DNA of 52,698 bases, taken from NCBI GenBank assembly GCA_902774055.1, contig CACYGX010000025.1, forward strand, positions 1-52,698, given 5' to 3'. The stretch comes from an uncultured Bacteroidales bacterium (GTDB taxonomy: Bacteria; Bacteroidota; Bacteroidia; Bacteroidales; Muribaculaceae). Positions 19,114 through 52,698 of this stretch are shown here, piece after piece. Under the pieces are notes generated by a model, which did not search any database, had not been told where the DNA came from, and worked only from the letters and a program-made list of their open reading frames with translations. Every line of letters begins with the position of its first letter. Positions within the stretch are counted from its first letter, which is position 1. The translations under genes and the position numbers were made by a program.

Positions 19114-19130
19114 ATAGATTCAGATAAGGT

Positions 19131-34370: not shown

Positions 34371-34413
34371 TGAATAGTGAATAGTTAATAGAGAATAGTT
34401 AATAGTTGATAAG
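34371..34413. repeat. Spacer repeat (GAATAGTTAATAG copies)
   Basis: The 43-base spacer consists almost wholly of AATAGTtAATAG-like copies, the reverse complement of the motif in the namZ-symporter spacer at 11722-11787. Confidence 0.6.
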
Positions 34414-35373: not shown

Positions 35374-35388
35374 TTTAACACCCCATAA

Positions 35389-35419
35389 TTGGTTTCTGTA
35401 TTCTTTTTTAGTAACTTTG
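35389..35419 (+). promoter_or_regulatory. Internal promoter before the third nuclease gene
   Basis: TTG (35389-35391), 20 bases, then TAACTTTG (35412-35419), a strong consensus match 22 bases before the ATG at 35442. The third nuclease and mnmE can therefore be transcribed apart from the SPFH cluster. Confidence 0.65.
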
Positions 35420-35441
35420 TCGGCAAGAAACAACAAGGATT

Positions 35442-37726: not shown

Positions 37727-37735
37727 CCCCTTATA

Positions 37736-37765
37736 AACAACTCTGAACAACTTTGAACAACTTGA
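37736..37765. repeat. Three tandem 10-bp repeats at the mobile-element boundary
   Basis: AACAACTCTG, AACAACTTTG and AACAACTTGA stand in register ten bases apart, starting ten bases after the mnmE stop codon. One-helical-turn spacing suits cooperative protein binding. It is a candidate left attachment region or a host sequence beside it; the right end is outside the window, so the core cannot be confirmed. Confidence 0.6.
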
Positions 37766-37800
37766 AGTAAACCGCTATAAATTAGCGGTTTACTCGTTTT
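37766..37800 (+). terminator. Rho-independent terminator after mnmE
   Basis: A perfect 11-bp stem (37766-37776 with 37784-37794, AGTAAACCGCT), 7-base loop, followed by CGTTTTTAA. It abuts the 10-bp repeats, so it could belong either to the host mnmE unit or to the element end. Confidence 0.75.
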
Positions 37801-37843
37801 TAACACTTCGGGTTGCATATTTTTTTCTTCAACTTTCTCGTAC

Positions 37844-37851
37844 TATTTTTG
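37844..37851 (+). promoter_or_regulatory. Possible promoter -7 box of the multi-HTH gene
   Basis: TATTTTTG matches TAnnTTTG, about 180 bases before the ATG at 38029, without a good -33. If used, the message has a long leader that includes the TGGAACA motifs. Confidence 0.35.
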
Positions 37852-37897
37852 TATCATATTTCTACCGCGAGTGTAAACTGTGTTCAAAGGACAAACT

Positions 37898-37979
37898 TGG
37901 AACAGCATGAAACTTATCCAAAACGCTATTGATGGGACAAAGTGGAACACAGTGGGAAATTGCGGAACTGAATGGAACA
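37898..37979. repeat. Three direct TGGAACA motifs, possible recombinase or HTH-protein sites
   Basis: TGGAACA occurs at 37898-37904, 37943-37949 and 37973-37979 in the same orientation, with a related CGGAACT at 37963 and an inverted TGTTCA at 37881. Spacings of 45 and 30 bases are near multiples of helical turns. Placement between the element end and the multi-HTH and integrase genes suits arm-type sites or an autoregulatory region. Confidence 0.5.
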
Positions 37980-38028
37980 AAAATGGCGGTTTTTCCGCAG
38001 AGTTAAACCTTTATAATGACGCACATTT

Positions 38029-39576
38029 ATGGAAATAGAGAAACGATGTCAGTGGTGCGGGAAACAATTCATAGCGCACAAAATGACGACTCTTTACTGC
38101 TCTTCAAGCTGTGTTAACAAGGCTTACAAGACAAAAAAGAGACAGATGATGAAAGAAGAAGTCGAGCATGAACAACACTCCAAGTTGCCCATCGTTGAAA
38201 GTATTGGAGACAAACCATACCTAAGCCCAATGGAAGCTGCAAAGCTTCTGGGTGTGGGAAAAACAACCATATATAGGTATATGGCTCAGGGGCAATTCAA
38301 GGTTCTTAGACTACCGGCTAAGACCCTCGTAAGAAGAATTGATTTGGAGGCCATGTTTGACAATGCCCCCGCATATGTCAAGCGGAACAACCGCAGGCAT
38401 AAGATCGAGCACGATAGCTATACAATGAAGGAGATTTGTGAGAAATATCAAGTGACCCGAAAAGTGGCCATGCGACGGATTGAGCAGTTCGACATCCCAA
38501 AGATATACGAGGGACGCAATGTGTCCTTCTCAAAAACTGCCGTTGACAGGTACTTTTCCGAACTCATCGAGGACTTTGATAAGGAGAATTACTACACCAT
38601 CCAACAGGTTATGGAGAAGTTCAACATGTCCTACTCTGCCGTCATTTCTTTTGCCAAACGGCATAAGTTACCAAGGGTTACCAGGCGGAGGGAAGTGTTC
38701 TATTCCAAACCCCATATCGACAGCCTGAAAGGTAATGGTGAAGCTATTGATCCTCTCTACAACACTTTCAAAGAGGTGATGGAGAAGTACGGATTCACAA
38801 AAGATCAAGTGAGCCATTATCTCCATACCTATCATATAGACCGCTTCAAACGAGGCACCTTTACAATGATTAACCGGAAGGAGTTTGACAAGACAATCAA
38901 GGAACGCATGAATGGATTCACAAGCATCTCTGAACTCAACGCAAAGATTGAAAAAGCAAAGGATGACCGAACAAGAACAGAGCAAATCACACCTCATTCT
39001 GGCAGCATTGACATCATACCAAGTGTGGAATCAGAGAATGATGCAGATGGGTACGAAGGCTATATTAGTGCCGAGGAGATAGCAGCACGATACAAACAAA
39101 GTAAAAAGTGGGTTGGCTTCCTGCTGCGTCAGAAAAAAATACCGAGGGTGCAGGTAGCAGGAATCCTGCTCTACGATGAGACAGCGGTTGAAGATGTCTT
39201 CAGCAGATATTCGTCACCAGATTCTATCACAGAATGGTACACCACAGATGATATAGAAAAGATGTACAACATGACACCTGTGGCCAGACGCAGCTTTACT
39301 CATCGTCACAATGTCCCTACAAAAAAGGAGTATGGCATCACGTATTACTCCAAGCTCCATGTTGACTTTGCACGTAATCCAGGGCTCCAATATGCCGAAG
39401 ACTACTACATGGTCGAGCAGATTATGGCCAAGTATCATGTTGACAGGGAAACTGTGTATGGTATTGTCAGATACAAAAAAATCCAGAGCGTCAAAGATGG
39501 GCAGTTCAGAGTCTATCTTAAATCCGCCATCGATAAGTGCTTTTCCGATAGACAAGAGAAGGACAATAAGAAATAA
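38029..39576 (+). CDS. Zinc-finger protein with seven tandem excisionase-like HTH modules
   Basis: 515 residues. A treble-clef-like zinc finger (Cys7, Cys10, Cys24, Cys28) is followed by seven modules of about 46 residues, each with a MerR/Xis-type helix-turn-helix and a short wing: beginning near residues 64 (YLSPMEAAKLLGVGKTTIYR), 131 (YTMKEICEKYQVTRK), 190 (YTIQQVMEKFNMSYS), 245 (YNTFKEVMEKYGFTKD), 345 (YISAEEIAARYKQSKKW), 402 (WYTTDDIEKMYNMTPV) and 457 (YYMVEQIMAKYHVDRE). A polar linker separates modules 4 and 5. It precedes the integrase and probably binds the element end as an integration/excision cofactor or master regulator. Family seen in Bacteroides elements; function not established to my knowledge. 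Confidence 0.8.
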   Translation: MEIEKRCQWCGKQFIAHKMTTLYCSSSCVNKAYKTKKRQMMKEEVEHEQHSKLPIVESIGDKPYLSPMEAAKLLGVGKTTIYRYMAQGQFKVLRLPAKTLVRRIDLEAMFDNAPAYVKRNNRRHKIEHDSYTMKEICEKYQVTRKVAMRRIEQFDIPKIYEGRNVSFSKTAVDRYFSELIEDFDKENYYTIQQVMEKFNMSYSAVISFAKRHKLPRVTRRREVFYSKPHIDSLKGNGEAIDPLYNTFKEVMEKYGFTKDQVSHYLHTYHIDRFKRGTFTMINRKEFDKTIKERMNGFTSISELNAKIEKAKDDRTRTEQITPHSGSIDIIPSVESENDADGYEGYISAEEIAARYKQSKKWVGFLLRQKKIPRVQVAGILLYDETAVEDVFSRYSSPDSITEWYTTDDIEKMYNMTPVARRSFTHRHNVPTKKEYGITYYSKLHVDFARNPGLQYAEDYYMVEQIMAKYHVDRETVYGIVRYKKIQSVKDGQFRVYLKSAIDKCFSDRQEKDNKK

Positions 39577-39678
39577 TAAGCTCAGACTTATCCCAGCATT
39601 ATTTTCAATTATAATCCGCTGATTGCCATCAGCATAAAATAAGTAAAGACATTTGCAAACTAATAAAACAATAAAGAC

Positions 39679-40848
39679 ATGCAGTGCTGCAAGACAATCA
39701 CACTTCGGAAACGCATCCTCAAATGCGGGATGATTTCCCTCTATCTGGACTATTATCCAGGCTATCGTGACATCATTTCCATGAAGACCATCCGTCGTGA
39801 ATCGCTTGGTATTTACATTTATCCCAAGCCCCAAAACAAGCGTGAGAAGGACTTCAATAAGGTAATGATTGAAAAAGCTGAAGCCATCCGTTGCAGGCGT
39901 TTTGAGTCCATCGTGAACGAACGTTATGACTTTTTTGATAAAAAGAGATTCAACGGCGACTTCCTTGCCTACTTCTATCAGATGCTTCAAAACAAAGACC
40001 CCAAGTGGAGGTTTGTCTATGAACACTTCTCATACTTTGTTGGCGGCAAGTGCCGCTGCGAAGAAATCGACGTTGATCTGTGCAACAAGTTCCGCGAATA
40101 CCTTCTGACAGCAAAGAACATGCGCAACGGCAGACCGATGGCCATCAACTCAGTCGCTGGCTATTGGTCAACATTCCGTGGCTTCCTGAATATTGCTTAC
40201 CGTGACAAGATGATCCGAACTAACCCCAATGATTTCTTGGACAAGATCAAGACCATTCCTGTTGACAAGCAGAGTCTGTCAATGGAAGAGCTTCGCAGGC
40301 TTTACCGTACTCCATGTGACATCGACGTACTGAAAAAGGCATCAATTTTCGCTTGCTTAACAGGTATGCGCCGAAGTGACATCATCAATCTCAGATGGGA
40401 AAACATCAAGGAATACGCCGACGGCAACAAGTATGTCGAGTTCTATGCACAAAAGACTAAAACACGTAACCTTATCCCCATCACCATGGGAGCATACGAA
40501 CTCATCTCTGAGGGACGAAAATCCTTATATGGGCCCGTATTTGACGGGTTTGAGATAGACATGGCACGGAAACCGCTGAAAACCTGGCTTGCTAAGGCTG
40601 GTATCAGAAAGCGGATAACATTCCATTCATTCCGGCATACTTTCGCATCGCTTCAAGTGGAACTTGGCACTGATCTCTACACTGTCCAGCAGCTCCTGGC
40701 ACACAAGAGTGTCACAACCACACAAATCTATGCTTGTCATGCCGACCCAAAGAGACGGGAAGCTGCCGAAAGAATATCATCCATGCTTCTCGGTGATGAT
40801 GGTAAAAAAGCAACGGCTCAAACCAAGAAAACGAAGAATTGTGGCTAA
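39679..40848 (+). CDS. Tyrosine site-specific integrase of the mobile element
   Basis: 389 residues with the three-part layout of Bacteroidetes element integrases: arm-binding N-terminus, SAM-like core-binding domain (about 95-200), catalytic domain. Catalytic residues: Arg in CLTGMRRSDIINL, Lys in QKTKTRNLIPI, HSFRHTFA (His-x-x-Arg), LLAHKSVTTTQIYA (His and the nucleophile Tyr). It carries out integration and excision of the element by strand exchange. No in-frame damage. A basic tail rich in Lys and Thr follows the catalytic domain. Confidence 0.93.
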   Translation: MQCCKTITLRKRILKCGMISLYLDYYPGYRDIISMKTIRRESLGIYIYPKPQNKREKDFNKVMIEKAEAIRCRRFESIVNERYDFFDKKRFNGDFLAYFYQMLQNKDPKWRFVYEHFSYFVGGKCRCEEIDVDLCNKFREYLLTAKNMRNGRPMAINSVAGYWSTFRGFLNIAYRDKMIRTNPNDFLDKIKTIPVDKQSLSMEELRRLYRTPCDIDVLKKASIFACLTGMRRSDIINLRWENIKEYADGNKYVEFYAQKTKTRNLIPITMGAYELISEGRKSLYGPVFDGFEIDMARKPLKTWLAKAGIRKRITFHSFRHTFASLQVELGTDLYTVQQLLAHKSVTTTQIYACHADPKRREAAERISSMLLGDDGKKATAQTKKTKNCG

Positions 40849-40929
40849 AGATTGCGAAACCCCTCAATATATTGAGGCAATGAAGAAACAAGCCAATTAA
40901 CCACAAAACCAATAATTATGATGGAATAA

Positions 40930-40962
40930 TTGCTGTTATTAGTGGATAATTCCGTAACTTTG
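40930..40962 (+). promoter_or_regulatory. Promoter before the membrane-protein gene
   Basis: TTG (40930-40932), 22 bases, then TAACTTTG (40955-40962); the spacing is slightly long. It lies 27 bases before the ATG at 40990. Confidence 0.55.
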
Positions 40963-40989
40963 CGCTCAAATTATTGATATTTTATTGAT

Positions 40990-41745
40990 ATGAAGAGCAA
41001 AAAGGTTACGGAACTTTTCTTTTTGGTTGTAGGCTGTATTGCAATGGGTTTATATACAGCAATGCTTTTCGAGTGGATTGATTGTGCCGACTGGTTCATA
41101 CTTCCCTCAAAGTTCATCAGCGGACAGTATGAGCAAGCAAAAGCCTTCACACCCATCTTATATATTACCCTGGCGCTGCTGGTTCTTATCAGGATGACAT
41201 TCATCAGTTATGCAATGGGCAAGACGGTAGTTGTTATCCCTCATAGTAAGCAGCAGTTGCGTCTTGTCACTGGATCAAAAAACGATTCAATGACAGAAGA
41301 GCCGGAGAAAGATAAGACTGAGGTCATCAGAGAACGCCATCAGCAGCAGCTCATCCAACGTAAGCGTCAAATTATGACATGTGTTTTGGAGTACGTGAAG
41401 CTCACACTGGCCCCCTACATGAAGACCTCTGACCTCAATGTCTTTTGTGAAAACATCAAAAATTGGGAGACCTCAAAGGACATTGCACCGTCGCCGTCCA
41501 TAACCAACGGTCAACTTTCAACATTGGACCTCAGACATTTAGCCTGGAACATCGGAGAACGTTTCAAGTGGAATGGTGAGCAACGGGCCATATTTATTAA
41601 GCGGTCGTTCCCCAATGAGTTCCGAGATCTTGAAATCAAATCAATCCGGCAAAACCTGCGACAGCATGGTACTTGCATCATCCCGATAGACATCCCGGAC
41701 AAAGGCTGTTTCAAGTTTCATACCCCATCCGCCAGCTTGCCATAA
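40990..41745 (+). CDS. Element-encoded membrane protein of unknown function
   Basis: 251 residues. Two membrane helices (about 6-27 and 54-75) flank a short loop, then a cytoplasmic, mostly helical, basic region (ERHQQQLIQRKRQIMTCVLE) and a folded C-terminal part (LDLRHLAWNIGERFKWNGEQ, SIRQNLRQHG) that could be a small DNA- or protein-binding domain. No family recognised. Its location between integrase and excisionase-like genes points to a regulatory or maintenance role in the element. Confidence 0.65.
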   Translation: MKSKKVTELFFLVVGCIAMGLYTAMLFEWIDCADWFILPSKFISGQYEQAKAFTPILYITLALLVLIRMTFISYAMGKTVVVIPHSKQQLRLVTGSKNDSMTEEPEKDKTEVIRERHQQQLIQRKRQIMTCVLEYVKLTLAPYMKTSDLNVFCENIKNWETSKDIAPSPSITNGQLSTLDLRHLAWNIGERFKWNGEQRAIFIKRSFPNEFRDLEIKSIRQNLRQHGTCIIPIDIPDKGCFKFHTPSASLP

Positions 41746-41864
41746 AACATTTACCTGCTTGTTACAACTTATTCTGACTTATTCCAGACTTAACTTTTGA
41801 TGACATCATCCAGCATTGAATCAGTCTGTTACTTTGCCATCGGAATCATAATAATTTCGACAAT

Positions 41865-42251
41865 ATGCAAGAACAGATTACATTCAACGACCTTCCCATG
41901 ATGGTCTCACAGGTGCTCAGCAAAATGGAGCGGCTTGAACGTGTAATTGAAACCATCAGAGAACGGATAGACGGCAATTCCACATCTTCAGCCGAACATA
42001 TTCCAATGACTATTGACGAGGCATGTGACTTCCTGAAGATGAAGAAATCAACAATGTACTATCACGTAGAACGTGGCAACATCACAGTCACCAAACGAGG
42101 GAAAAACTTCATTTTTTTCAAAGATGAACTTGTACATTGGCTTGAAGGTGGCAGGAAGAACCAGGAAAGCAGCATGAATCCAGACGAAGAGAATGACATG
42201 CGCCTGGCTTCATTCAGACGAAAACCCAAAGGATTCTATCCAAGAAGATGA
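41865..42251 (+). CDS. Excisionase-like HTH protein
   Basis: 128 residues: an N-terminal coiled helix (MVSQVLSKMERLERVIETIR), then a single MerR/Xis-type HTH_17 domain (about 47-95: MTIDEACDFLKMKKSTMYYH, VERGNITVTKRGKNFIFFKD), then a polar basic tail (FRRKPKGFYPRR). This build is common for excisionase or directionality factors of Bacteroides elements. It probably steers the integrase towards excision. Confidence 0.82.
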   Translation: MQEQITFNDLPMMVSQVLSKMERLERVIETIRERIDGNSTSSAEHIPMTIDEACDFLKMKKSTMYYHVERGNITVTKRGKNFIFFKDELVHWLEGGRKNQESSMNPDEENDMRLASFRRKPKGFYPRR

Positions 42252-42654
42252 CTCATCCCCACCCAAGATGCGCCCATGCCAAATTTCTGTGTCTTTCTAC
42301 TTTCCAGCCATTGGCATCGCTTTTGTCCATCACGTCTCGGCCTTTCGTGCAAGCATGAAAGCCTTCGCAGTATTGGACAATGACCAGTGAGAGTCGCCGA
42401 GAAACTCTGTGATGTATGTACTGGAGAATGCAAGTCAGACAACAGACATGCCTTCTCTTTTCCGTACATATAACACGGAGTTTCTTTTTCGACGACACTC
42501 AAAGGTCACCACCATGCAATGGCCTGGCAGGCAGATTCATTGTTGGCATGGACTGCATCACCACCCTCATTCATCTAAAGCAAAATATCCTCACACCAGA
42601 TTGCCTATCTTTCATATATCCAAATAACCAAATTCAACAAATACTTATATTGTG
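42252..42654. other. Gene-poor spacer at the left edge of the defence cargo
   Basis: A 403-base gap. An 81-codon minus-strand frame (42253-42498, GTG start, Cys- and His-rich: CEGFHACTKGRDVMDKSDAN) could be a small gene or a relic, but nothing supports it beyond being open. The left copy of the 49-bp repeat (42528-42576) lies in the right half. No terminator hairpin was recognised. Confidence 0.5.
42528..42576 (+). repeat. 49-bp direct repeat, left copy, flanking the defence cargo
   Basis: Bases 42528-42576 (from CAGGCAGATTCATTGTTG to CTCATTCATCT) are identical to 47675-47723. Beyond the perfect core the similarity continues, weaker, for about 20 bases to the left (shared GTCACCAC) and 40 to the right (shared AGATTGC). 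On the minus strand each copy opens a tiny frame with the same first 17 residues. Confidence 0.95.
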
Positions 42655-43128
42655 TTAATTATGCTGAAGCCTTGCGCCCGTTTGATTGTTATTTGTTTCC
42701 GTCTTTTCGACATCCCAGTTTCCGTGGCCACCACCCATCCACTTACCTGTTGAAACCCATATTTCATAATAGTACATCCACTCTACCGCCCAATGCACTA
42801 TCGTATTTGCGATAACCATTGATGACCTCCATTCCCCTGACCATGGCAAATACAGGCACAATTGTTGTTTGCCATCTTTAAAATTATATGTATGTGGCAG
42901 ACGTTTCGCGCCCTCAGCTAATGGTAGTGGTTTTGGTGACACAATAAATACCTTCGGGGCAGCACCGAGGGTATAAGAAATCTTCAGCCTATAGGTGTTT
43001 GATAAAGCCGAAGGTGTGAACTCCCCAAACCAAGTCATCGTGCCACAATAAACTGAGCCTGACGATCCGGGGAATTCATGCTTCAGTAAGTTAAATTGAC
43101 GTATTGGTGTTATCGCCTTACTCTCCAT
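42655..43128 (-). CDS. CBASS stand-alone E2-like protein (short type II / II-C)
   Basis: 157 residues. The pattern is that of prokaryotic ubiquitin-conjugating-like folds tied to CBASS: a beta-rich N-terminus (TYRLKISYTLGAAPKVFIVS), the HTYNFKDGKQQLCLYLPWSG block with catalytic-type Cys91 and upstream His79, then GEWRSSMVIANTIVHWAVEW and STGKWMGGGHG. No E1 (adenylation) or JAB protease domain is present here or next door. Such E2-only proteins are thought to act on the CD-NTase C-terminus and so tune its activity. The start overlaps the CD-NTase end by 11 bases. It is last in the operon. Confidence 0.75.
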   Translation of the reverse strand: MESKAITPIRQFNLLKHEFPGSSGSVYCGTMTWFGEFTPSALSNTYRLKISYTLGAAPKVFIVSPKPLPLAEGAKRLPHTYNFKDGKQQLCLYLPWSGEWRSSMVIANTIVHWAVEWMYYYEIWVSTGKWMGGGHGNWDVEKTETNNNQTGARLQHN

Positions 43129-44350
43129 AAAAGGTGTGCGCAGTGTTTATTATTTTCCCATTGGGACTTGCTGCAACTTTCCCTGTTCTTGTCAAAAGAA
43201 CAGCACCAGTAGCAAGCTTTGATTTCCTTCGTTCGACCAAAAGAGATGCAGCTTTTGTTGTAACTTCCTTTCCAAACACGCGCCCCATGGTGGCCTGAAT
43301 CTGCATTCTCGTAGAACCTTTCAGGATCTCGTTCACATCATTCTTGACAGTAGCAAGCCAATTGTAGAAATTATTACGTCTTGTAGGATGGCTTGGCCAT
43401 TTATCCGCAAAATTCTCCTCAGGGTTAACTGGATTTGACACCACATCCTCACCTTTCTCATTCTTGGTGATAAACCTCTCCATATTATCGACCACATTTA
43501 TCAAACCGTCAAGCAGGTTTTTCTCACCACTGTAGGCGCGAGCTGCCAATGTTGTAATGATAATGGATATCGGCTTGTCATCCTTATTATTGCAGAACAT
43601 CATGTCCCTATGACGTTTTAGTATCTGAACAATGCGTTGTAGAACGGTTTTGTTCTTCGTGTACTTCCCAATCGGCACAACGGCCTCAGCCATAAGCTTT
43701 ACGGACTCATCCGCTTTACACCGGCTAGCGAACCACAATGCATAACCGTCTGGATTGCTCTTCAACCAGTTTTCTTTACGGGTAGAAATGGCATAATCCC
43801 AAGCCTTTTTATCTGTGATGCGGATAGAAATCTGATCAACAGTTTCTTCCGAAAAACTATCAGAATACAAACGAGCCATTTTTTCATTATATTTTCCGTC
43901 AGCCACTGCAGGTAAAATATCCATGTGATATTTCTCTTTAGGATTATCCGAGTTATCTCTATATAGCAATGTCCAGCAACGGCGACCTTCTGTCTGTGAC
44001 AACATCGAAGCATAGCGATCACTGCGCTTGAGTCGCGCACCTACCTTGTCTTTCAAATCCTTCTGTGTCCACAGTGGACTCTTCTCCGTCAATCGGAACA
44101 CCAAATCCACATCTATGTCTTCGTCTGAATTAATAGGCTGAATGATGGTTCCCAGTCTAAGAGAGCCTTGTGGTGTCACAACTGGTGTATAAGGTTCAAA
44201 CGTTGGGTCATTCTGCAAGAAATCTCCAACGGCTTTATAGCTCCTTGCAAGATTGTCAAATTGAGTCTCGTTAATGTCCAATGACTCACCCAGAGTTTCA
44301 AGAATATCCTTAAACTCTTCTTTCTGTTCCTCACTTAAATTACGTTGCAT
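43118..44350 (-). CDS. CD-NTase (cGAS/DncV-like nucleotidyltransferase) of CBASS
   Basis: 410 residues. The nucleotidyltransferase core shows TPQGSLRLGT (Gly62-Ser63), the metal pair in DIDVDLVF (Asp80, Asp82) and the third Asp in YHMDILPAV (Asp144), so all catalytic acids are kept. A helical C-terminal half follows (KTVLQRIVQILKRHRDMMF). On phage sensing such enzymes make a cyclic oligonucleotide that activates the effector. The C-terminus ends ...TFYGE, relevant to the E2-like partner. Twelve bases downstream of the effector gene. Confidence 0.9.
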   Translation of the reverse strand: MQRNLSEEQKEEFKDILETLGESLDINETQFDNLARSYKAVGDFLQNDPTFEPYTPVVTPQGSLRLGTIIQPINSDEDIDVDLVFRLTEKSPLWTQKDLKDKVGARLKRSDRYASMLSQTEGRRCWTLLYRDNSDNPKEKYHMDILPAVADGKYNEKMARLYSDSFSEETVDQISIRITDKKAWDYAISTRKENWLKSNPDGYALWFASRCKADESVKLMAEAVVPIGKYTKNKTVLQRIVQILKRHRDMMFCNNKDDKPISIIITTLAARAYSGEKNLLDGLINVVDNMERFITKNEKGEDVVSNPVNPEENFADKWPSHPTRRNNFYNWLATVKNDVNEILKGSTRMQIQATMGRVFGKEVTTKAASLLVERRKSKLATGAVLLTRTGKVAASPNGKIINTAHTFYGE

Positions 44351-44361
44351 TCTACTCTATT

Positions 44362-45483
44362 TTATTTTATTGTTAGTATTTCTATATCTTCATCCGTTTC
44401 GGCTCTATAATCAAACAACACCCAAGGCAAGTCCGCCTTAGGCATCCTGATGCGCCCTAGTTCTACAGCGCAAGAAGCTGGAGCCGCCATAAAGATTTTC
44501 AAATTGTCAGCCTGAGGATGGGCGGTCTTGATAGCATCCATTGTTGCTCGTGCCACTCGGTTGAACTGATGGAATTGTTCTTCGCTGCGCATCATATCAT
44601 TCCCTGGTTCATCACATGTGATAACCCAGATACTTGCTTTTTCACCCAAACGCCTTATAATCCTTTCTTTGATGGCCTTGGCACTCAATGCTATCACTAA
44701 CACAGGATTCTTACCCTCGACAATGGGCTTTTCTAACCGAATGTCGTTTTTAACATCCTCATCAAGCCAACGCCAAGTGCGTGGTATACGATGCATTTGA
44801 TACACGCGTACATGGTATTTGTCATTTAGCACGGTGCCGAGTTTCACCAAAAGCGGTTGGGGACCTAGTGGAAATAAAGAGACGTGAGCCGTAATACCAT
44901 TCTCAATGGCCTTGAGAACCTTATCTGCACACAATTTGTCTATTTGAAGTTTCTCGATAAGCCAGTAGTCTGGATCTCCCTCATCGAGCACCGAGTTCTT
45001 CATTTGGATTTCCACAGGATCTAAAGTTGCTGGGTATCGATCAGGGAAAATAGCATTGTGAAGCTCTTCTTTTTGAAAGTACGGAACATCTTTTCCGATC
45101 TTAGGACCATATGCCACCACCAAGCTCTTATTCTCTGGCTGTATGGCTGTAGCCATCCATATGCGGTCTTCGTGTTCTTTTTTCATTGCCCTCAGTAATT
45201 CCTCTGAGTATTTTTCCACTCCTTCGTGATCAATCAGTTTGTGGCACTCTGGGCAAAGCAACATAAGATTACTTGGATCTTTGGCAAGTTCTTTTGATCT
45301 GCTATCGCCCCTTGGACCATCCTCAGAATCTCCAATAATATGAGCATAGTTTGAGATATTACATTTATCCATCGTAATACCGTTCACATCCAGTCGTTTA
45401 TTACAGCCCCTAAACTCACACCTTCCATGAGCTGCGAACCACAGTTCTCGTCTAACGTTAATATTAATATGTGTTTTACTCAT
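44362..45483 (-). CDS. cap5: HNH-SAVED effector nuclease of CBASS (Cap5-like)
   Basis: 373 residues. N-terminal HNH endonuclease: CEFRGCNKRL, NYAHIIG, then NLMLLCPECHKLIDHEG (about 20-95). After a linker, the SAVED domain (about 170-373: ITAHVSLFPLGPQPLLVKLG, HRIPRTWRW, PVLVIALSAKAI, FMAAPASCAVELGRIRMPKA). The SAVED part binds the cyclic nucleotide made by the CD-NTase; binding drives assembly and destructive DNA cutting by HNH. First gene of the minus-strand CBASS operon, divergent from rloA. Confidence 0.9.
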   Translation of the reverse strand: MSKTHININVRRELWFAAHGRCEFRGCNKRLDVNGITMDKCNISNYAHIIGDSEDGPRGDSRSKELAKDPSNLMLLCPECHKLIDHEGVEKYSEELLRAMKKEHEDRIWMATAIQPENKSLVVAYGPKIGKDVPYFQKEELHNAIFPDRYPATLDPVEIQMKNSVLDEGDPDYWLIEKLQIDKLCADKVLKAIENGITAHVSLFPLGPQPLLVKLGTVLNDKYHVRVYQMHRIPRTWRWLDEDVKNDIRLEKPIVEGKNPVLVIALSAKAIKERIIRRLGEKASIWVITCDEPGNDMMRSEEQFHQFNRVARATMDAIKTAHPQADNLKIFMAAPASCAVELGRIRMPKADLPWVLFDYRAETDEDIEILTIK

Positions 45484-45634
45484 GCATTATAATATTTTAA
45501 ACTATTTACTATAATTCACTTCAATTATCGTGCCAACAAATAAAACCATGCCAGTTTGTCACTTTATAGTCCATTTCGGCAAAAATGTCAGTTAATTATC
45601 CGATTAAAATCGCATTATTTGAGCATTTTATTTT

Positions 45635-45662
45635 TTTGTCTCAAAAAATATTTGCATCTTTG
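45635..45662 (+). promoter_or_regulatory. Possible promoter of rloAB
   Basis: TTTG (45635-45638), 16 bases, then CATCTTTG (45655-45662), 24 bases before the ATG. The first base differs from the TAnnTTTG consensus and the spacer is short. The 203-base divergent spacer (45484-45686) is very A+T-rich; no clear promoter box was found for the CBASS side. Confidence 0.35.
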
Positions 45663-45686
45663 CAGCCAAAAATCAACTGACCAATT

Positions 45687-46973
45687 ATGATACAAGAAAT
45701 TAAATTCCAGAACTTCCTCTCCTTTCGCGACGAGACCATTTTCAGCTTTGAGCCGTTAAAGGATGACCCGATTAACCGTGTAGTCACAATGCCTGACGGA
45801 ACCAAATTGCTTCGGTTCGCCGCCATTTTTGGGGCCAATGCCTCTGGCAAATCAAATTTTCTTGAAGTTTTCGACTTTCTGCTTAATTTCTGGACACAAT
45901 TACCTTCGCGTAACGATCTTTCTACTAGAGTGTCACCGTTCTTGCTTGACAAAGACACACCCTTGCAGGACTCTCTATTTGAAATAAAGTTCTATGTTAA
46001 GGGTGTCCGCTATTGGTACAAACTGGAACTTAACAATGAACGTGTTTCAGGCGAGTCTCTTTATTTCTACGAATCCAACCAGCCAACTCGTATTTTTTGG
46101 CGCGAATACATTGATGGGCAATCCGTGGTTAAGTTTAACTACGCAGTTGTAAAACTGAAAGTTGCAGAACTTGACGCCATCAACCTTAATTGCTGGAAAA
46201 ACATGTCTTTCTTCGCATCCATGACAAAGGTCAATCTACATATTGATCGTATTGATACTGTCCTCCGATGGATTAATGAAAAACTCATGCCTGGAATCAA
46301 TCGAAGTACAGAACTGTCTGGATACGCCAAAAGCCGTATGCTTAAAGATGAATCCTTCCGCAATTATCTCATGTCATTTACTCAGAAGGCCGACTTGCGC
46401 ATATCAAGGATAGATGTCAAAGAAACGCCCTTTAGTCTCAACGAGAGTCAACTCAAAGCCATCTCTGAGGCAAAATTCATTAACGAGAAACAACGGGAAG
46501 ATATTCTTGCTAAAGGCTTTATAAATGACATTCAGACAGATTTCGTTGTTCACGTTAAGAACACTCGCGGTGAAGAAGAATACATCTTACCCGAGACCAG
46601 TCAGTCAGCAGGGACTACACGTGTAATCGAAATTGAGTCTGCCATCCATACCATTTTGGAGAATCAAGCCTTTCTGGCTATCGATGAGGTTGAGGCATCA
46701 CTTCACCCCTTCCTCTTGGATTTCATCTTAGATAGATTCCTCAAAAAAGAAGACAATGAGTCACAATTATTGGTTACAACGCATTATGATCCACTCCTTG
46801 ATACCATAGATGACCTATTTGGAAAGGATTCAGTGTGGTTTACTGATAAAAGAGAAGATGGAAATACGGAACTCTACCCCCTAACTGACTTCAAGGGCTT
46901 GAACAAATTAAAATCTATACGAAAATCATACAAAAACGGTCAATTCGGAGCTGTTCCAGAAATTTATGTTTAA
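45687..46973 (+). CDS. rloA: RloA/AbiLi-type AAA ATPase
   Basis: 428 residues, AAA_15/SMC-like ATPase. Walker A is FGANASGKSN (Gly49-Ser56), a signature-like stretch is ETSQSAGTTRVIEIE, and Walker B is AFLAIDEVEASLHP near residue 335, followed by the THYDPLLD His switch. RloA-type ATPases are encoded with RloB (TOPRIM-like) and together act in abortive infection, as in the lactococcal AbiL pair and the related PARIS systems. The partner starts five bases downstream. Defence function is inferred from family and location. Confidence 0.87.
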   Translation: MIQEIKFQNFLSFRDETIFSFEPLKDDPINRVVTMPDGTKLLRFAAIFGANASGKSNFLEVFDFLLNFWTQLPSRNDLSTRVSPFLLDKDTPLQDSLFEIKFYVKGVRYWYKLELNNERVSGESLYFYESNQPTRIFWREYIDGQSVVKFNYAVVKLKVAELDAINLNCWKNMSFFASMTKVNLHIDRIDTVLRWINEKLMPGINRSTELSGYAKSRMLKDESFRNYLMSFTQKADLRISRIDVKETPFSLNESQLKAISEAKFINEKQREDILAKGFINDIQTDFVVHVKNTRGEEEYILPETSQSAGTTRVIEIESAIHTILENQAFLAIDEVEASLHPFLLDFILDRFLKKEDNESQLLVTTHYDPLLDTIDDLFGKDSVWFTDKREDGNTELYPLTDFKGLNKLKSIRKSYKNGQFGAVPEIYV

Positions 46974-46978
46974 ATAAT

Positions 46979-47584
46979 ATGGCAAGAAAAAGAAAGGAAC
47001 GAGAATTGCGCCGCTCGCGAATAACAGTAATTGGTGAGGGGTTGACAGAACGCTGGTACTTTGACCATTTGCGCACTGTTATGGGTTTCCGTTATGACTG
47101 CAAACCCCGTTTTTTTACACATCAATCCTATGACGAGATGCGTAAACTAATCGAGCTGGTCCTTCAAGACGACGGCATTGCCGTGTGCGTCTGTGATGCT
47201 GACATTACCCGCATCAACCCGGTTGAAAGCGTGCGACTTAAAGAAATGAAAGATAAATATGCCTCGAACGACAAGGTATTTATCTGTGATAGCATGCCTT
47301 CTATCGAATTTTGGTTTTTACTCCACTTTTTGGAAACCAGTCGATTTTTTAATGATTCTAATGAAGTTTCCAACATCCTCCGTCGGTATATACCTGCATT
47401 CCAGAAACACAGCTTTTTCTTGGAGAAAGTTCACTGGGTATCAGACCTTTGTGCCGACGACAAGTTAGCAACCGCTTGCTCGCGCGCCAATTTTTTAAGC
47501 CAGAACCAACAAGCCAAATCGTATTCCAATATATTCAAAGCAATAGAACTGTTTTTAGCTAACCAAAAAACGAAACAATTGTAG
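46979..47584 (+). CDS. rloB: RloB/AbiLii-type TOPRIM-like protein
   Basis: 201 residues. The TOPRIM-like pattern is present: VIGEGLTERWYF (Glu), VCVCDADITRINP (Asp-x-Asp) and DSMPSIEFWFLLHF. A basic N-terminus (ARKRKERELRRSR) precedes it. RloB is the presumed toxin/nuclease of the pair, held or triggered by the ATPase encoded upstream. It is intact and at usual length. The right 49-bp repeat begins 90 bases after its stop. Confidence 0.87.
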   Translation: MARKRKERELRRSRITVIGEGLTERWYFDHLRTVMGFRYDCKPRFFTHQSYDEMRKLIELVLQDDGIAVCVCDADITRINPVESVRLKEMKDKYASNDKVFICDSMPSIEFWFLLHFLETSRFFNDSNEVSNILRRYIPAFQKHSFFLEKVHWVSDLCADDKLATACSRANFLSQNQQAKSYSNIFKAIELFLANQKTKQL

Positions 47585-47674
47585 ACGATGAAAAAATGAT
47601 CATAATTTGCACACCTTTGCTTGTGTTACGGTTTATATAAGATTCACAAGTCGTCACCACGCACTTGGCGTTGA

Positions 47675-47723
47675 CAGGCAGATTCATTGTTGGCATGGAC
47701 TGCATCACCACCCTCATTCATCT
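47675..47723 (+). repeat. 49-bp direct repeat, right copy, flanking the defence cargo
   Basis: Identical over 49 bases to 42528-42576, in the same orientation. The two copies enclose CBASS and rloAB and nothing else, about 5.1 kb. Confidence 0.95.
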
Positions 47724-47761
47724 GAAATATAATAGCTTCATATGAGATTGCTTTATTTTCT

Positions 47762-47861
47762 TGTAGCGATGTAGCGAAGCAGGAACGGCCCCATTTTTCT
47801 TTTTAAATATCAGTGACTTACGTTTCGCTACATGGTTTATTTCAGGTTTTGTTTCGCTACA
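47762..47861. repeat. Four-copy TGTAGCGAA motif cluster
   Basis: TGTAGCGA occurs at 47762-47769, TGTAGCGAAGC at 47770-47780, and the reverse complement GTTTCGCTACA at 47822-47832 and 47851-47861. Two copies on each strand, in pairs, look like protein-binding sites or iterons, such as an origin of transfer or a regulatory site. They lie 100 bases past the 3-prime end of topB. Confidence 0.6.
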
Positions 47862-47960
47862 AAAAACAGGGGCGGCCTGCCAAAGGTGACCCCTGCATTG
47901 TTTTATTAAAAACTAGTCGTATGAAATGAAAAAAGTTAGTTGGTGTTTGTATTGCTGCGA

Positions 47961-50078
47961 TTATTTGAACTCATTACACTTTGGACAGAACCAGTATGAT
48001 TGCTTCTTCTTTTTACTGTACACGCTTATCAGCGGCAGACCGCATGTCGGGCAAAGCTTGATGACAGGCTTCATCCGCAGGTCCGCATAGAAGATTGGTT
48101 TCAGAGTGGTCGGATGTACACAAGAATTCTCCTGACAGATCCAGAAGTGCTTCTTGGTCTTCGGGGAATACTTGCGTACAAGCGTTTTACGATGGCATAC
48201 AGGACATTCCCTATTGGGAACCACCTGACCTTCAGCTGCCTTGATCGTCAATGACATACAAGGGGAGCTCTCTTCTGCGAACTTAATGTTTTCCTGAACC
48301 ATCCTCTCGGTCTGCTCCATAAAGTCATCCAACCCCATCTTGCCATCGGCAATGGCCGAGAGATTATACTCCATTTCTGCCGTAAGGTCGGGCTTGGTCA
48401 ATGATTCGTGAATGCTCTCGATCATTGCCACGCCTAAGTCAGTCGGAACGAGTTCCTTGCCCTTTTTCTGAATACAGGGAAACGAATGAGACTTTCCTGA
48501 CGATATGGCGAGCAAGTCAGCAATGATGCTATCACGAGTTGCCGGCGTTCCAATGCCTTTGCACTCCTTCAGTTTCTCTCTGTTAGGATTGTCCGGGTTG
48601 ACAAAACGCCAGATATTGGTCATCGCTGCCAGCAGCGAGCCTTCCGTAAAACGCTTAGGGGGAGCCGTCTTCTTATCCTCTATAATATATACAGGTATAG
48701 GGAACTCATCGCCAACCACAAGGTTTGGAATGTCTTTGACTTCATCCTCCTTGTCATCCGACTTAGCAACACTACGCCATCCTGGACTGACAACCGCCTT
48801 GCCAGTTCCTGCGAACATACATCCTTGTGCCTCTATTTCGTATTTGATGGCGTTGTATTTACAAGGGGGAAAGAACTGGATGATGTACCGCATGGCTATC
48901 ATTTCATAGATCTTGCGCTCCCATTCGTCCAAGTTTTTTGGGACAACGCCAGTAGGTATCAGCGCATGATGTGCGCTGACCTTGTTGTCATTGAAGCAGC
49001 GACTCTTTATTGTGGAGTCGGCATGGAGTGCAGCCTCCATGCCATAATCGCCAAGGGATTTCAAAATTCGGACACCATCCTGGTGTTGACTTGATGGGAT
49101 GTAATTACAGTCAGAACGTGGATAGCTCACGAACTTCTTTTCATACAAGGACTGTACCCTTGCAAGCACACTCGACGGAGACATGCCATAACGCTTATTG
49201 GCTTCCACCTGCAAAGTATCGATGGAGTAAGGCAATGGCGAACTTTCAGTCTGGCTATGCCTCTCGCAGTGTGTGACCCTTGCGGTTTTATTTTTGATTT
49301 CTTCCTTGATCCGCTCCAGATATTTCCGGTCAATGATACGCCCTTCGCAGTCAGTCGGAGCATCCGCTGTCGATGTCAATGTTGCCGTGAAGGGGATGCC
49401 GCCCTTTGAGAGGTTAGCCTTCAATTCATAGTAGTTGATGGAATGGAAATCTTTTATCTCCTTTTCCCGATTGACCACCAAAGCAAGCGTGGGTGTCTTC
49501 ACACGCCCTACACGCCAGACACAACCATTACCGCCTGTCCGGGCACTGATCGTATATGCCCTCGACAGATTGATGCCTACTAACCAGTCTGCCCGTTCAC
49601 GCGCCATGCCTGCATGGTACAATGAACGAAACCGTTCATTCGGCACGATATTGTCAAACGCCCGTTTCATACTGTCGCTGTCTTTGGCATTGATGAGAAT
49701 GCGCCGTACATCCCCCTTATAGCCTACATATTCCAATATTTCGTCAATCAGCAACTGCCCCTCACGGTCAGGGTCACCGCCATTGACTACGACATCGGCC
49801 TTCTTCAAAACAGTGCGGATATACTCAAATTGTCCCTTGGCTGTTGGCGAGGGGAGTTTCTTCCATTCTGTCGGGAATATGGGATATTTCTTAAAATCAG
49901 CATATTCCTTACCGTAGGCCTCAGGCATAGCCGTCATCAAGATGTGGCCAAACGCCCATGTCACGATGACATCATCTTTCTGATAGCAGTGCTTGCTCCT
50001 ACAGGCGACAAAATCAGTCCACAAGTAAGACGCTATGGCTGTGGCGATGTCCGGCTTTTCTGCAATATAAACTGTCAT
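47961..50078 (-). CDS. topB: DNA topoisomerase III, mobile-element type
   Basis: 705 residues, type IA topoisomerase. TOPRIM domain at the start (VYIAEKPDIATAIASYLW; GDPDREGQLL), the active site SYPRSDCNYIP with Tyr319, and two C-terminal zinc ribbons (CPVCHRKTLV and CPTCGLPLIS...CPKC). TopB-like genes are a usual part of Bacteroides conjugative elements, where they help process strands in transfer or excision. Located 11 bases after the resolvase-like gene, so both form one operon. Confidence 0.93.
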   Translation of the reverse strand: MTVYIAEKPDIATAIASYLWTDFVACRSKHCYQKDDVIVTWAFGHILMTAMPEAYGKEYADFKKYPIFPTEWKKLPSPTAKGQFEYIRTVLKKADVVVNGGDPDREGQLLIDEILEYVGYKGDVRRILINAKDSDSMKRAFDNIVPNERFRSLYHAGMARERADWLVGINLSRAYTISARTGGNGCVWRVGRVKTPTLALVVNREKEIKDFHSINYYELKANLSKGGIPFTATLTSTADAPTDCEGRIIDRKYLERIKEEIKNKTARVTHCERHSQTESSPLPYSIDTLQVEANKRYGMSPSSVLARVQSLYEKKFVSYPRSDCNYIPSSQHQDGVRILKSLGDYGMEAALHADSTIKSRCFNDNKVSAHHALIPTGVVPKNLDEWERKIYEMIAMRYIIQFFPPCKYNAIKYEIEAQGCMFAGTGKAVVSPGWRSVAKSDDKEDEVKDIPNLVVGDEFPIPVYIIEDKKTAPPKRFTEGSLLAAMTNIWRFVNPDNPNREKLKECKGIGTPATRDSIIADLLAISSGKSHSFPCIQKKGKELVPTDLGVAMIESIHESLTKPDLTAEMEYNLSAIADGKMGLDDFMEQTERMVQENIKFAEESSPCMSLTIKAAEGQVVPNRECPVCHRKTLVRKYSPKTKKHFWICQENSCVHPTTLKPIFYADLRMKPVIKLCPTCGLPLISVYSKKKKQSYWFCPKCNEFK

Positions 50079-50089
50079 AACGATTATGT

Positions 50090-50701
50090 TTACAGGTTCC
50101 TTTGAATGATATTTGGTGACTGGTGTCTTGTGCGGACCATCGTTGGGTATTCCAGCTCCACATTGTACATGTGGAGAATCCTGTAGATGTTGCTCTTCCC
50201 GTGATAGCCCGTCCTTGACATGATTTCCTTGATGCTGTAACCCGCATTGTACATATTGATGACCATGCGGTATTTCTTCAGTTTCTTCTCCTGGTGCTTG
50301 TCTGCAATGAGTTCCGCCTCAAAGTCATCAAAACCTTCATCACGCTTGTCTGTACGCACATTGACAATGGCAGAGAGCACATTCCTGGTGCTGCCATTTG
50401 GGAACAACTCATCGGAGGTGTCCAAACCATCGAACAAAGAAATAATCCGAATGTGCCGACTTAGGCAGTATTTCAGGAAAAACACCAGATCCGTGTGATT
50501 CTTGAAGGCATTGTCAAATGACAGAAGCACCGCTGCGTCGCCTTCATTGAGTTTGCCGAGAAAGCACTTCCATTCAAGGCGATCATTGTCGTCCCTTTCC
50601 TCAATATGGATAGGGGAACATTGAAGCTGTTTCATCTTTGAAAGCCCCACTTCAATATTATCAACATATTGAGCATTGTTTATATATCCGACACAACTCA
50701 T
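50090..50701 (-). CDS. Resolvase-like protein lacking catalytic residues, with C-terminal HTH
   Basis: 203 residues. Residues 1-100 follow the serine-recombinase N-terminal fold (GYINNAQ, HIEERDDNDRLEWKCFLGKL, EGDAAVLLSFDNAFKN, IRIISLFDGLDT), but the catalytic Ser near position 8-10 is Asn-Asn and the active-site Arg of the D-R-L-x-R block is replaced (SFDNAFKN). A C-terminal helix-turn-helix (MYNAGYSIKEIMSRTGYHGK) remains. It should bind DNA without cutting it, probably as a regulator or accessory factor for topB, with which it is co-transcribed. Confidence 0.7.
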   Translation of the reverse strand: MSCVGYINNAQYVDNIEVGLSKMKQLQCSPIHIEERDDNDRLEWKCFLGKLNEGDAAVLLSFDNAFKNHTDLVFFLKYCLSRHIRIISLFDGLDTSDELFPNGSTRNVLSAIVNVRTDKRDEGFDDFEAELIADKHQEKKLKKYRMVINMYNAGYSIKEIMSRTGYHGKSNIYRILHMYNVELEYPTMVRTRHQSPNIIQRNL

Positions 50702-50730
50702 ATTGTACTTCTTGCTGCAAATATTGAGCG

Positions 50731-50738
50731 CAAAGTTA
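50731..50738 (-). promoter_or_regulatory. Promoter -7 box of the resolvase-like/topB operon
   Basis: TAACTTTG on the minus strand matches TAnnTTTG, 29 bases upstream of the start at 50701. Confidence 0.55.
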
Positions 50739-50895
50739 TATTACAATTATTTAATAGGCACTTTATTTGTCAACTTTAACACTTTGTCTTGCAATCAAAT
50801 AAGCAATTTGGTTCTGTTTGGTTCTATTTCTCAATAAAATGATACCAATAATTAAAATATTAGGAAATATTATCAATATTTTGAGCAAAACACAG

Positions 50896-50903
50896 TAGTT
50901 TTG
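50896..50903 (+). promoter_or_regulatory. Promoter -7 box of the lipoprotein operon
   Basis: TAGTTTTG matches TAnnTTTG, 37 bases before the ATG at 50941. The -33 region is unclear. The divergent spacer 50702-50940 is A+T-rich and holds this box and the one for the topB operon. Confidence 0.5.
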
Positions 50904-50940
50904 CATCCTGTAAATCAACCCAAACATTTTTTATAAGGAT

Positions 50941-51987
50941 ATGATCACATTTAACACGTTCAAAAACTCAAAACATTTGACATTAAAACTATGTTCATTA
51001 TGCCTGTCGGTTTTCCTGTTTTCATCATGCTCCAGTGATGACAAACTTGATTTCAGATCTTCAAATGATGCGTTAAGAGCATATCAGGATTATCTGAGTT
51101 CCGTCAAAGAAACAAAGACCTGCAACACTTCATCATTCTGTAAAGAAATCAAGGTATGGAAGGAGATCTCAGATACCGTTTACCACTTTCTGATGAAGGA
51201 TTCCACATTCATTAAAGACTTACATTGTGCAAATGACTATGCATCAATCCACGACTCCATTCGTTTTGAGTTTCTCAGACTGACTGAGACATGGCGGTAC
51301 TCATACGAGGATGTTCTGCAAATCAAGGAGCAGACATCCATATTCCATGAGGACAATGAGCTGCACGAGGCCGTCATTGAAGCGAAGCCTTTCTTTGTCG
51401 CATTAGATAGCCTTCCTGTCATAGAATCCGACAAGAAAGATATTCTTTCTCAATATCGCAGCCTACTGAAGCACGCCATTCAATCCGGCATCCATGATAA
51501 GGCTGCCATGCTTGACTTCATCGGCAGGGAGGATATTTTGTTCCGCTCATTCCTGGTTCACATCTATGAGATGGATAACGAGCCGTTATCTGACATCACA
51601 CAAGAAACGGAACGGATTTGCCGGAACATCTTTATTGCTGCGAGAAACGGAGAGATTGCTGCACGTGACGCCATGGTCTATATGTCTATGCGGACAGTCA
51701 GACGGCTTTTGCAAAACTCCACCGCCTGCATATCGGACATCAACAATCAGAAGACAATGAGCAAATCACAGGGAAATGCCTATCTCTGGATGATTATTCA
51801 GCCGTTCATCAGCATTGACCAGTTTTCGATCGCCACACTCACGCCACAGGAACATAGTCATTTCAACTACATCATCGCACAACTGCCGAAGTCGGTCAAG
51901 TTTGCCGAGACATTCGGCATTGACCAACGTGCCTTAAACTATCTCCTTCCTCAACAACTCTTGAAAATGTATGTATTAACACTCTAA
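50941..51987 (+). CDS. Element-encoded lipoprotein of unknown function
   Basis: 348 residues with a lipoprotein signal (LCSLCLSVFLFSSC; lipobox Cys30). The mature part is mostly helical and polar without recognisable motifs (SNDALRAYQDYLSSVKET, DRIRFEFLRLTETWRYS-like helices, AARDAMVYMSMRTVRRLLQN). No family recognised. Exported lipoproteins near topB are usual in Bacteroides elements. It is followed after 12 bases by the next gene, likely in one operon. Confidence 0.7.
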   Translation: MITFNTFKNSKHLTLKLCSLCLSVFLFSSCSSDDKLDFRSSNDALRAYQDYLSSVKETKTCNTSSFCKEIKVWKEISDTVYHFLMKDSTFIKDLHCANDYASIHDSIRFEFLRLTETWRYSYEDVLQIKEQTSIFHEDNELHEAVIEAKPFFVALDSLPVIESDKKDILSQYRSLLKHAIQSGIHDKAAMLDFIGREDILFRSFLVHIYEMDNEPLSDITQETERICRNIFIAARNGEIAARDAMVYMSMRTVRRLLQNSTACISDINNQKTMSKSQGNAYLWMIIQPFISIDQFSIATLTPQEHSHFNYIIAQLPKSVKFAETFGIDQRALNYLLPQQLLKMYVLTL

Positions 51988-51999
51988 ATATTCAAAGAT

Positions 52000-52455
52000 A
52001 TGATTAAAGACGAAGTAACCAGATTTATGGCCTTAGCGCCGCTCATGCTGCCAAAGTTGATAAAAAACACGACAGCCGAAGAAACGGACATCACTGACGA
52101 TTCCGCCATATTGTATTTCACATTGGAGGAGGCATTGCCAATCGGCCTCGTGATGGATATGCTTGAAGATGACATGGAACTGTCATTGCTTTATCATGGC
52201 ACAAGTAAGGACAACGCAAAGCTGCATCATTGCTGTTTCTTTACAAGCCCTGCCAATGGAAAGAACATGTTTAAGTTCAACATGGTCTCAGATAACCGTG
52301 AATATGTCAGTGACCTGACCATTTCCATTTTCGACTCACTTGACACGATGGAGAGTGAGCTGGAATCAGATCTGACGTCACATGCCAAAAGTTTCGACTT
52401 CATTCAGGCCATGGAGGTTTCTGAAGTGCTTGGCTTATTCTGCCTGTTGGAATGA
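52000..52455 (+). CDS. Hypothetical element protein
   Basis: 151 residues, acidic, no signal peptide or membrane segment, mixed alpha/beta (DEVTRFMALAPLMLPKLIKN, ALPIGLVMDMLEDDMELSLL, SDLTISIFDSLDTMESELES). No family recognised. Its stop overlaps the next start (ATGA at 52452-52455), so the two are translationally coupled. Confidence 0.65.
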   Translation: MIKDEVTRFMALAPLMLPKLIKNTTAEETDITDDSAILYFTLEEALPIGLVMDMLEDDMELSLLYHGTSKDNAKLHHCCFFTSPANGKNMFKFNMVSDNREYVSDLTISIFDSLDTMESELESDLTSHAKSFDFIQAMEVSEVLGLFCLLE

Positions 52456-52698
52456 GAACAGAACTCCTATATAAGATAGCCGACATGATCAACGCCAACA
52501 GCACGAAATACCGTGCTGTCATCCCTCGCGCTAAAAGGCAGTATATGACACAACAGGGCAAAATCCTTGTCAAGTCCACTTGTCTTGTCCTTAATGTTAT
52601 GGTGACGACCCGACCGAAGAACCATGTGAATCGGAGCATCTGGAACATTTATGAAAATGACATCGACAGAATTATCACAAAAATCAGTCGCAGGGATA
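52452..52698 (+). CDS. Hypothetical element protein, cut by window edge
   Basis: An open frame from the ATG at 52452 runs without stop to the end of the window (82 codons seen): TELLYKIADMINANSTKYRA, then basic sequence (VIPRAKRQYMTQQGKILVKS). The coupled start and open frame support a real gene; its end and function are unknown. Confidence 0.6.
   Translation, partial: MRTELLYKIADMINANSTKYRAVIPRAKRQYMTQQGKILVKSTCLVLNVMVTTRPKNHVNRSIWNIYENDIDRIITKISRRD

Follow-up and report, generated by a model that had tools for sequence, protein, structure and literature searches.

A predicted defence module bracketed by a 49-bp direct repeat, and its empty counterparts, in a mobile element of an uncultured Bacteroidales bacterium

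Why are two predicted anti-phage systems enclosed by a perfect 49-bp direct repeat, and is this repeat the place where defence genes are exchanged? The question is raised by contig CACYGX010000025.1 (assembly GCA_902774055.1) of an uncultured Bacteroidales bacterium of the Muribaculaceae, analysed over its positions 1 to 52,698 (52,698 nucleotides, the window). A preliminary description had placed an operon of a cyclic oligonucleotide-based anti-phage signalling system (CBASS, minus strand) and an RloA/RloB gene pair (plus strand) between the two repeat copies, inside an integrative element and between an excisionase-like gene (xis) and topB, and proposed a cargo hotspot in which defence modules are swapped at a repeat family. 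Its account of the architecture was confirmed, the gene content by five genes with family matches (Table 1). All statements on the gene content of the insert refer to these five genes, two additional open reading frames (ORFs) of 92 and 105 aa that overlap them lying outside the scans.

Direct reading of the letters affirmed that both 49-bp copies are identical with zero mismatches. In the alignment the identical run comprises 49 columns, and the flanks are partly similar, as had been described, with 26 of 45 and 28 of 45 flanking columns identical. The cores lie in a longer homology of 107 nt at 79% (42525-42631 versus 47672-47778; spacing 5147). When 47 of the 49 core bases served as query with up to 3 mismatches allowed, the window gave exactly two matches, each of them perfect; 100 shuffles gave none. 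A 95-base query matched only these two places in the organism's own genome (3.17 Mb, 54 contigs; E <= 0.001). An RNA element at the repeat was rejected, as an Rfam scan of 42300-48000 gave no match up to E 1 and the left and right copies fold no better than shuffles (z +0.7 to +2.2).

Comparison with sister elements revealed both states of the site. The left copy, searched as DNA against 101 genus genomes including the window's own, matched 13, twelve of which carry a close element and are the same 12 genomes that encode an excisionase-like protein 96-100% identical to that of the window. The remaining match (G036; 33 bases, E 4.1e-4) was read as chance, the element being absent from that genome. 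Two of the 12 close elements, those of the window and of genome G067, are filled, and ten contain one core and no cargo. A 19-mer scan of a species collection added one empty contig (L098), which brings the count to 11 empty elements and 13 elements overall. Since L098 and the empty element of genome G029 share their left neighbour, the two may represent one locus that was binned into different assemblies, so that the independent empty elements number 10 or 11. Their cores are identical to the 49 bp in 9 of 11 cases and carry one substitution each in the other two (L025, L026). A sequence made by joining the window's two outer flanks with a single core between them aligned without gaps to the empty site over 540-562 bp in 10 of 11 cases; in the remaining element, L025, 52 bases next to the core are missing. 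This gapless alignment implies that what separates the filled from the empty state is exactly the cargo and one copy of the core. One-copy elements devoid of cargo had been anticipated in the preliminary description, and were found here with a precise insertion as their counterpart. Its second expectation, different defence genes between two copies, failed in both filled elements (2/2; 13 elements seen): window and G067 carry the same cargo with 6 differences.

No convincing copies of the core were found outside this element family at the sensitivity used, and its proposed membership of a repeat family at which cargo is exchanged was not borne out. A DNA search in 393 genomes of the order returned the window's own genome only. 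The 19-mer scan of the species collection (contigs of at least 3 kb, which may omit records close to the window's genome) yielded 15 stretches, consisting of 11 genus-genome contigs, the empty L098 and three others (L099, L101, L103) that match little beyond the 19-mer and were read as chance. Among viral contigs the same scan gave a single match, L111, which is confined to the 19-mer and was likewise put down to chance. As an exact 19-mer scan misses diverged copies, the absence holds only at that sensitivity. A sequence model run over the 101 genus genomes produced 4 matches beyond the known sites (E 0.003-0.0095), also read as chance. Around distant excisionase-like relatives (28-41% identity), 18 loci gave core matches of at most 16 bases and no topB match, these loci spanning 9-18 kb and some ending soon after the gene. 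In two distant elements of nearly the same sequence (L088, L089) a weak site match (E 4 and 0.26) lies inside a gene that is ATPase-like by eye and directly follows xis; the idea that the site is a remnant of this gene found no match at the site in a tblastn search with the L088/L089 ATPase-like protein. A topB search in the 393 genomes at E 1e-100 returned the own genome only, a limit too strict to be informative.

The two filled elements record how the cargo has moved since. Their hosts show 16.9% divergence in mnmE (36700-37700), and the elements themselves differ by 0-2.4% in the segments compared; an element found in two hosts with well-diverged mnmE implies transfer between species. Within the elements a near-identical block (Table 1) is set off from arms that differ by 0.6-2.4%. 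Over the 2199 bases of 40300-42498, G067 and window show zero differences and G067 differs from every empty element by 2.05-2.51%; in 38600-40300, G067 is 2.35% away from the window but only 0.18-0.41% away from six of the 11 empty elements. Site by site, window/G067 differences stop at 40245 and G067-only sites resume at 48849. From 40626 to 48666 the sites are specific to the two carriers, except for a single one seen in the window alone (48223). Excluding the cargo interior, the backbone runs without a difference for up to 2879 positions (40246 to 48222), compared to at most 1206 in 2000 shuffles. The left breakpoint lies 1.9-2.3 kb outside the nearer core, the right one 0.9-1.1 kb. Their position in int, the tyrosine recombinase gene, and in topB implies that the cargo was separated or moved by recombination within these neighbouring genes and not at the repeat. 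The cargo may have reached a second backbone, or may have kept its own backbone while the arms were exchanged; either fits the data. Further carrier-only sites at 50579-52144, where divergence is lower (0.56%), show that the mosaic extends further right.

The first 0.9 kb of the element (37727-38600) also points to mosaic exchange: among sister elements it occurs in two haplotypes that differ by about 13%.

On balance we lean towards one precise insertion of the defence module by homology at the core, followed by ordinary spread with the backbone. A 5.1-kb module would have entered the convergent xis-topB gap of one element lineage, once among the elements seen. Since the inner insert flanks resemble the opposite outer flanks, the incoming unit would have brought its own related site, about 60% alike outside the 49-bp identical core, and a single crossover in the core would have left one copy at each end. 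This crossover was most likely ordinary homologous recombination between the resident site and incoming DNA, probably a circle or another element; we infer both the donor and the enzyme. Homologous recombination accounts for the imperfect flank similarity as well as the finding that Pfam and PADLOC scans detected neither a recombinase nor a transposase among the five insert genes. Two later movements can be read from the sequence: the element crossed from one host species to another, and the cargo, together with backbone of about 2 kb on its left and 1 kb on its right, recombined against other element copies. The site lies between convergent genes when empty (xis, topB), and in a circle of the insert it would again do so (RloB, E2), so that insertion breaks no operon. 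A module bracketed by a repeat of about 520 bp in the same family (genome G052, see below) supports this insertion model.

Several points weigh against it. The direction, gain or loss, is taken from counts rather than from an outgroup having an intact site. A perfect 49-bp core between flanks about 60% alike exceeds the expectation under uniform divergence; to account for it, one would have to invoke either a tract repaired during the crossover or a constrained core, both of which are possible. The 118-base empty site as a whole contains an inverted repeat that was equalled in only 33 of 500 shuffles, which keeps a specific recombinase conceivable. Moreover, a length of 49 bp is close to the minimum at which homologous recombination works efficiently. 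Finally, the donor was not found in the genus, plasmid or phage collections: the cargo DNA is present at full length in 2 of the 101 genus genomes, matches of 48 and 43 bases (G047, G040) having been set aside, and it gave one match in the plasmid collection (107 bases at 73.8%) and one in the phage collection (899 bases at 65.3%).

The main rival on mechanism is a recombinase supplied in trans. The insert would then be a non-autonomous satellite that integrated site-specifically, with the cores as attL and attR and, for example, the element's own integrase as the enzyme. Att sites classically show this pattern of one core in empty and two in filled elements, the element has genes for a tyrosine recombinase and excisionase-like proteins nearby, and the inverted repeat of the empty site points in the same direction. 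However, the five insert genes include no recombinase, the core taken alone shows no more inverted-repeat structure than expected by chance (217 of 500 shuffles were equally good) and has no 8-mer in common with the 76-base stretch at the mnmE junction, and similarity of the flanks on either side of the core is unexpected for att arms. We therefore regard a satellite as unlikely. A transposon with target-site duplication would bring a transposase, and none was detected among the five genes. For an integron-type cassette, whose recombination site has imperfect inverted repeats, the figures are mixed: the core is at chance level, the empty site as a whole is seldom equalled by shuffles, and the left and right copies fold no better than shuffles.

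Alternatively, the cargo could be ancestral and the empty elements deletions between the direct repeats, as recombination between the cores would yield exactly the empty sequence. On the left flank (40300-42498) each of the 11 empty elements is 2.05-2.51% away from the filled haplotype, and in 47752-48400 the 10 with enough sequence are 3.5-4.3% away (L098: 4 of 187 bases), so that none is a recent deletion product and one old loss or several would be needed. Since no empty element has the filled haplotype, gain is favoured over loss, and we consider an ancestral cargo improbable.

Least convincing is the swapping of defence modules by recombination at the repeat: the exact filled/empty pair and the conserved core agree with it, identical ends would in principle allow excision or replacement at the core, and rare exchange could have escaped a set of only 13 elements, but one cargo type in both filled elements beside 11 empty ones, a repeat family not found elsewhere, and known reshuffling that broke outside the repeat, in int and topB, make it a poor candidate. 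The 49-bp site is not a proven swapping site. Of the hotspot that had been proposed, the empty sites remain, and exchange at the repeat gives way to breakpoints in the backbone genes and to a varying slot elsewhere. As a speculation that we rate no higher, the core may be a dedicated entry site for recombinase-less defence-module circles, each with a related site, in which case a 56-bp repeat locus of genome G135 would be a second example.

Compared to the xis-topB site, a second slot of the same family is closer to the hotspot expected in the preliminary description. Nine sister arms were compared with the G052 arm (L155) in the region beyond the relaxase. Eight of them agree with G052 up to 8738-8761, just past a gene that we take to be DUF2493-like, and the ninth, G047 (L144), up to 8400; past that boundary no arm matches G052 for several kb (E 1e-8). 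The slot holds TIR-domain genes in G089 (L150) and G093 (L149), the same set by gene list, an AAA/DUF3226 pair in G100 (L151), a C39-peptidase ABC exporter in G054 (L153), and in G052 a HATPase gene, an AAA gene and a second module. Seven of 10 ORFs taken from the 47 in the slot match a PADLOC model at E 1e-8, which is only a guide since AAA ATPases match many PADLOC defence models. In the G047 arm the DUF2493-like gene is truncated at 8360 by variable DNA (1 of 10 arms), so that the usual slot boundary is lost in this element. The second module of the G052 arm (contig C31, from L145, L146 and L155), 4.5 kb with an AAA ATPase and a PIN-domain protein, is bracketed by a direct repeat of about 520 bp (91%; 13606-14127 and 18631-19169). 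Its layout is similar to that of the window pair, but the repeats are longer and more evenly alike; no such bracketing repeat was seen in any other of the ten arms.

The cargo comprises the features of two known systems. A CD-NTase, an HNH-SAVED nucleotide-sensing effector and an E2-like protein indicate CBASS, and no E1 was matched among the five scanned genes. The nearest solved structures by sequence are a cyclic GMP-AMP synthase (9woo), CdnG with its E2 partner (8hsb) and a SAVED-domain protein (7rwk). This CdnG-Cap5-like operon presumably belongs to the type termed II-short. An RloB domain adjoining an AAA ATPase is characteristic of RloA/RloB (AbiL-like) systems, and the order AAA ATPase then RloB resembles AbiL (AbiLi/AbiLii in PADLOC); it departs from AbiL in that the AbiLii model is matched only partially, over profile positions 22-91 of 170. 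From these domains both systems are predicted to defend against phages. In the CBASS operon the CD-NTase would produce a cyclic nucleotide and thereby switch on the HNH-SAVED nuclease, and RloA and RloB probably work together as an AbiL-type system. CBASS of the CdnG-Cap5 type has already been described (PMC8568899, in excerpt). The window operon shares its CD-NTase and HNH-SAVED effector, and its E2-like gene matches the E2 chain of 8hsb; it differs in the gene order effector, CD-NTase, E2, in that no E1 is recognised, and in being known here from sequence.

Relatives of the HNH-SAVED protein (36-44% identity) were found in 4 other genomes of 386 at E 1e-40, with a direct repeat around the module in one of the four neighbourhoods (L166) and none in three. 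In L166, from genome G135, a 56-bp direct repeat (95%; 6926-6981 and 11054-11109) brackets the HNH-SAVED gene and further genes, one of them ATPase-like by eye. This repeat occurs at only two places in the G135 genome, and no likeness to the 49-bp core was noticed.

The surrounding element begins at mnmE and shows the order mnmE, helix-turn-helix (HTH) protein, tyrosine recombinase, 251-aa gene, xis, insert, topB. An integrase with a chromosomal junction is a feature of integrative and conjugative elements (ICEs) and integrative and mobilizable elements. The window stops before the relaxase gene, which was detected in sister element G047 (Mob_Pre 63.4 bits, cut-off 25.5); no part of a type IV secretion system was found among the 8 proteins of the G047 arm that constitute the whole Pfam scan. 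Nine of the 10 empty sister elements in the genus also adjoin mnmE, the alignments continuing through this gene. The G029 and L098 elements have a common left neighbour other than mnmE and align with the window from 37702.

In CTnDOT-type excision regions, integrase, excisionase-like genes and topoisomerase III lie close together. The window element resembles this type (PMC10865816, in part) in its gene layout, and differs from it in that most members of its family here are at mnmE. The available portion of PMC2791158 describes ICEs of the SXT/R391 family with intergenic insertions at fixed boundaries, some of them restriction-modification cargo, and with mosaic backbones from inter-element recombination. 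The window element is alike in its fixed-boundary intergenic insertion, defence-type cargo and mosaic backbone. The same portion reports hotspot contents that differ among SXT/R391 elements, whereas the xis-topB site holds one cargo or none and has a 49-bp direct repeat as its borders. No paper on this element was found in the open-licence PMC literature. As cargo in an ICE variable region the locus is an ordinary example of what is already known; not found described are the element family, its filled/empty pair and the cargo-shuffling mosaic. For two defence systems carried by a mobile element of an uncultured Bacteroidales bacterium, the locus allows the filled and the empty state to be compared to the base, and its mosaic breakpoints show shuffling of cargo among element copies via recombination in the backbone genes on either side. 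Moreover, an insertion seen once, at xis-topB, can be told apart from a slot of this family with varying contents, a distinction that counts when single genomes are used to map defence hotspots.

Table 1. Positions of the repeat copies, the cargo and the surrounding element in the window.
Feature	Position	Strand	Evidence or remark
Left copy, 49-bp core	42528-42576	+	direct read, repeat search, alignment
Right copy, 49-bp core	47675-47723	+	direct read, repeat search, alignment
Cargo insert, 5098 bp	42577-47674	+	absent from 11 sister elements
CBASS E2-like protein	42655-43128	-	PADLOC E2 162 bits; PDB 8hsb chain B, E 5e-20
CBASS CD-NTase (CdnG-like)	43118-44350	-	PADLOC cyclase 417 bits; PF18144 (SMODS) 46.9 bits, cut-off 26.5; PDB 9woo, 8hsb
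CBASS HNH-SAVED effector (Cap5-like)	44362-45483	-	PADLOC 450 bits; PF18145 + HNH; PDB 7rwk, E 1.3e-67
AAA ATPase, RloA/AbiLi-like	45687-46973	+	PF13304 101.7 bits; PADLOC AbiLi 241.7 bits
RloB/AbiLii-like	46979-47584	+	PF13707 59.2 bits, cut-off 31.5; PADLOC AbiLii 64.9 bits
Additional ORF, 92 aa	43762-44040	-	overlaps cargo genes
Additional ORF, 105 aa	45641-45958	-	overlaps cargo genes
Near-identical block common to window and G067 elements	40246-48848	.	breakpoints: left 40245-40626 (int), right 48666-48849 (topB)
Left arm of integrative mobile element beside mnmE 3' end	37727-52698	+	mnmE end; G029/L098 elements align from 37702 on; window ends inside element
mnmE	36329-37726	+	left neighbour of element
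Large HTH protein	38029-39576		first listed gene after mnmE
Tyrosine recombinase (integrase)	39679-40848	+	PF00589 74.8 bits, cut-off 27.1
251-aa gene			between tyrosine recombinase and excisionase-like gene
Excisionase-like HTH_17 gene (xis)	41865-42251	+	PF12728; TIGR01764 30.7 bits, cut-off 28.8
topB, DNA topoisomerase III	47961-50078	-	NF005829 618.9 bits, cut-off 597; TIGR01056 551.2 bits, cut-off 515.75

Outside the element, three adjacent genes for DNA/RNA non-specific endonucleases directly precede mnmE (33534-36332). Near the left end of the window, the stretch 109-2971 contains imperfect direct repeats (43-108 nt) of several families around a leucine-rich repeat/dockerin gene.

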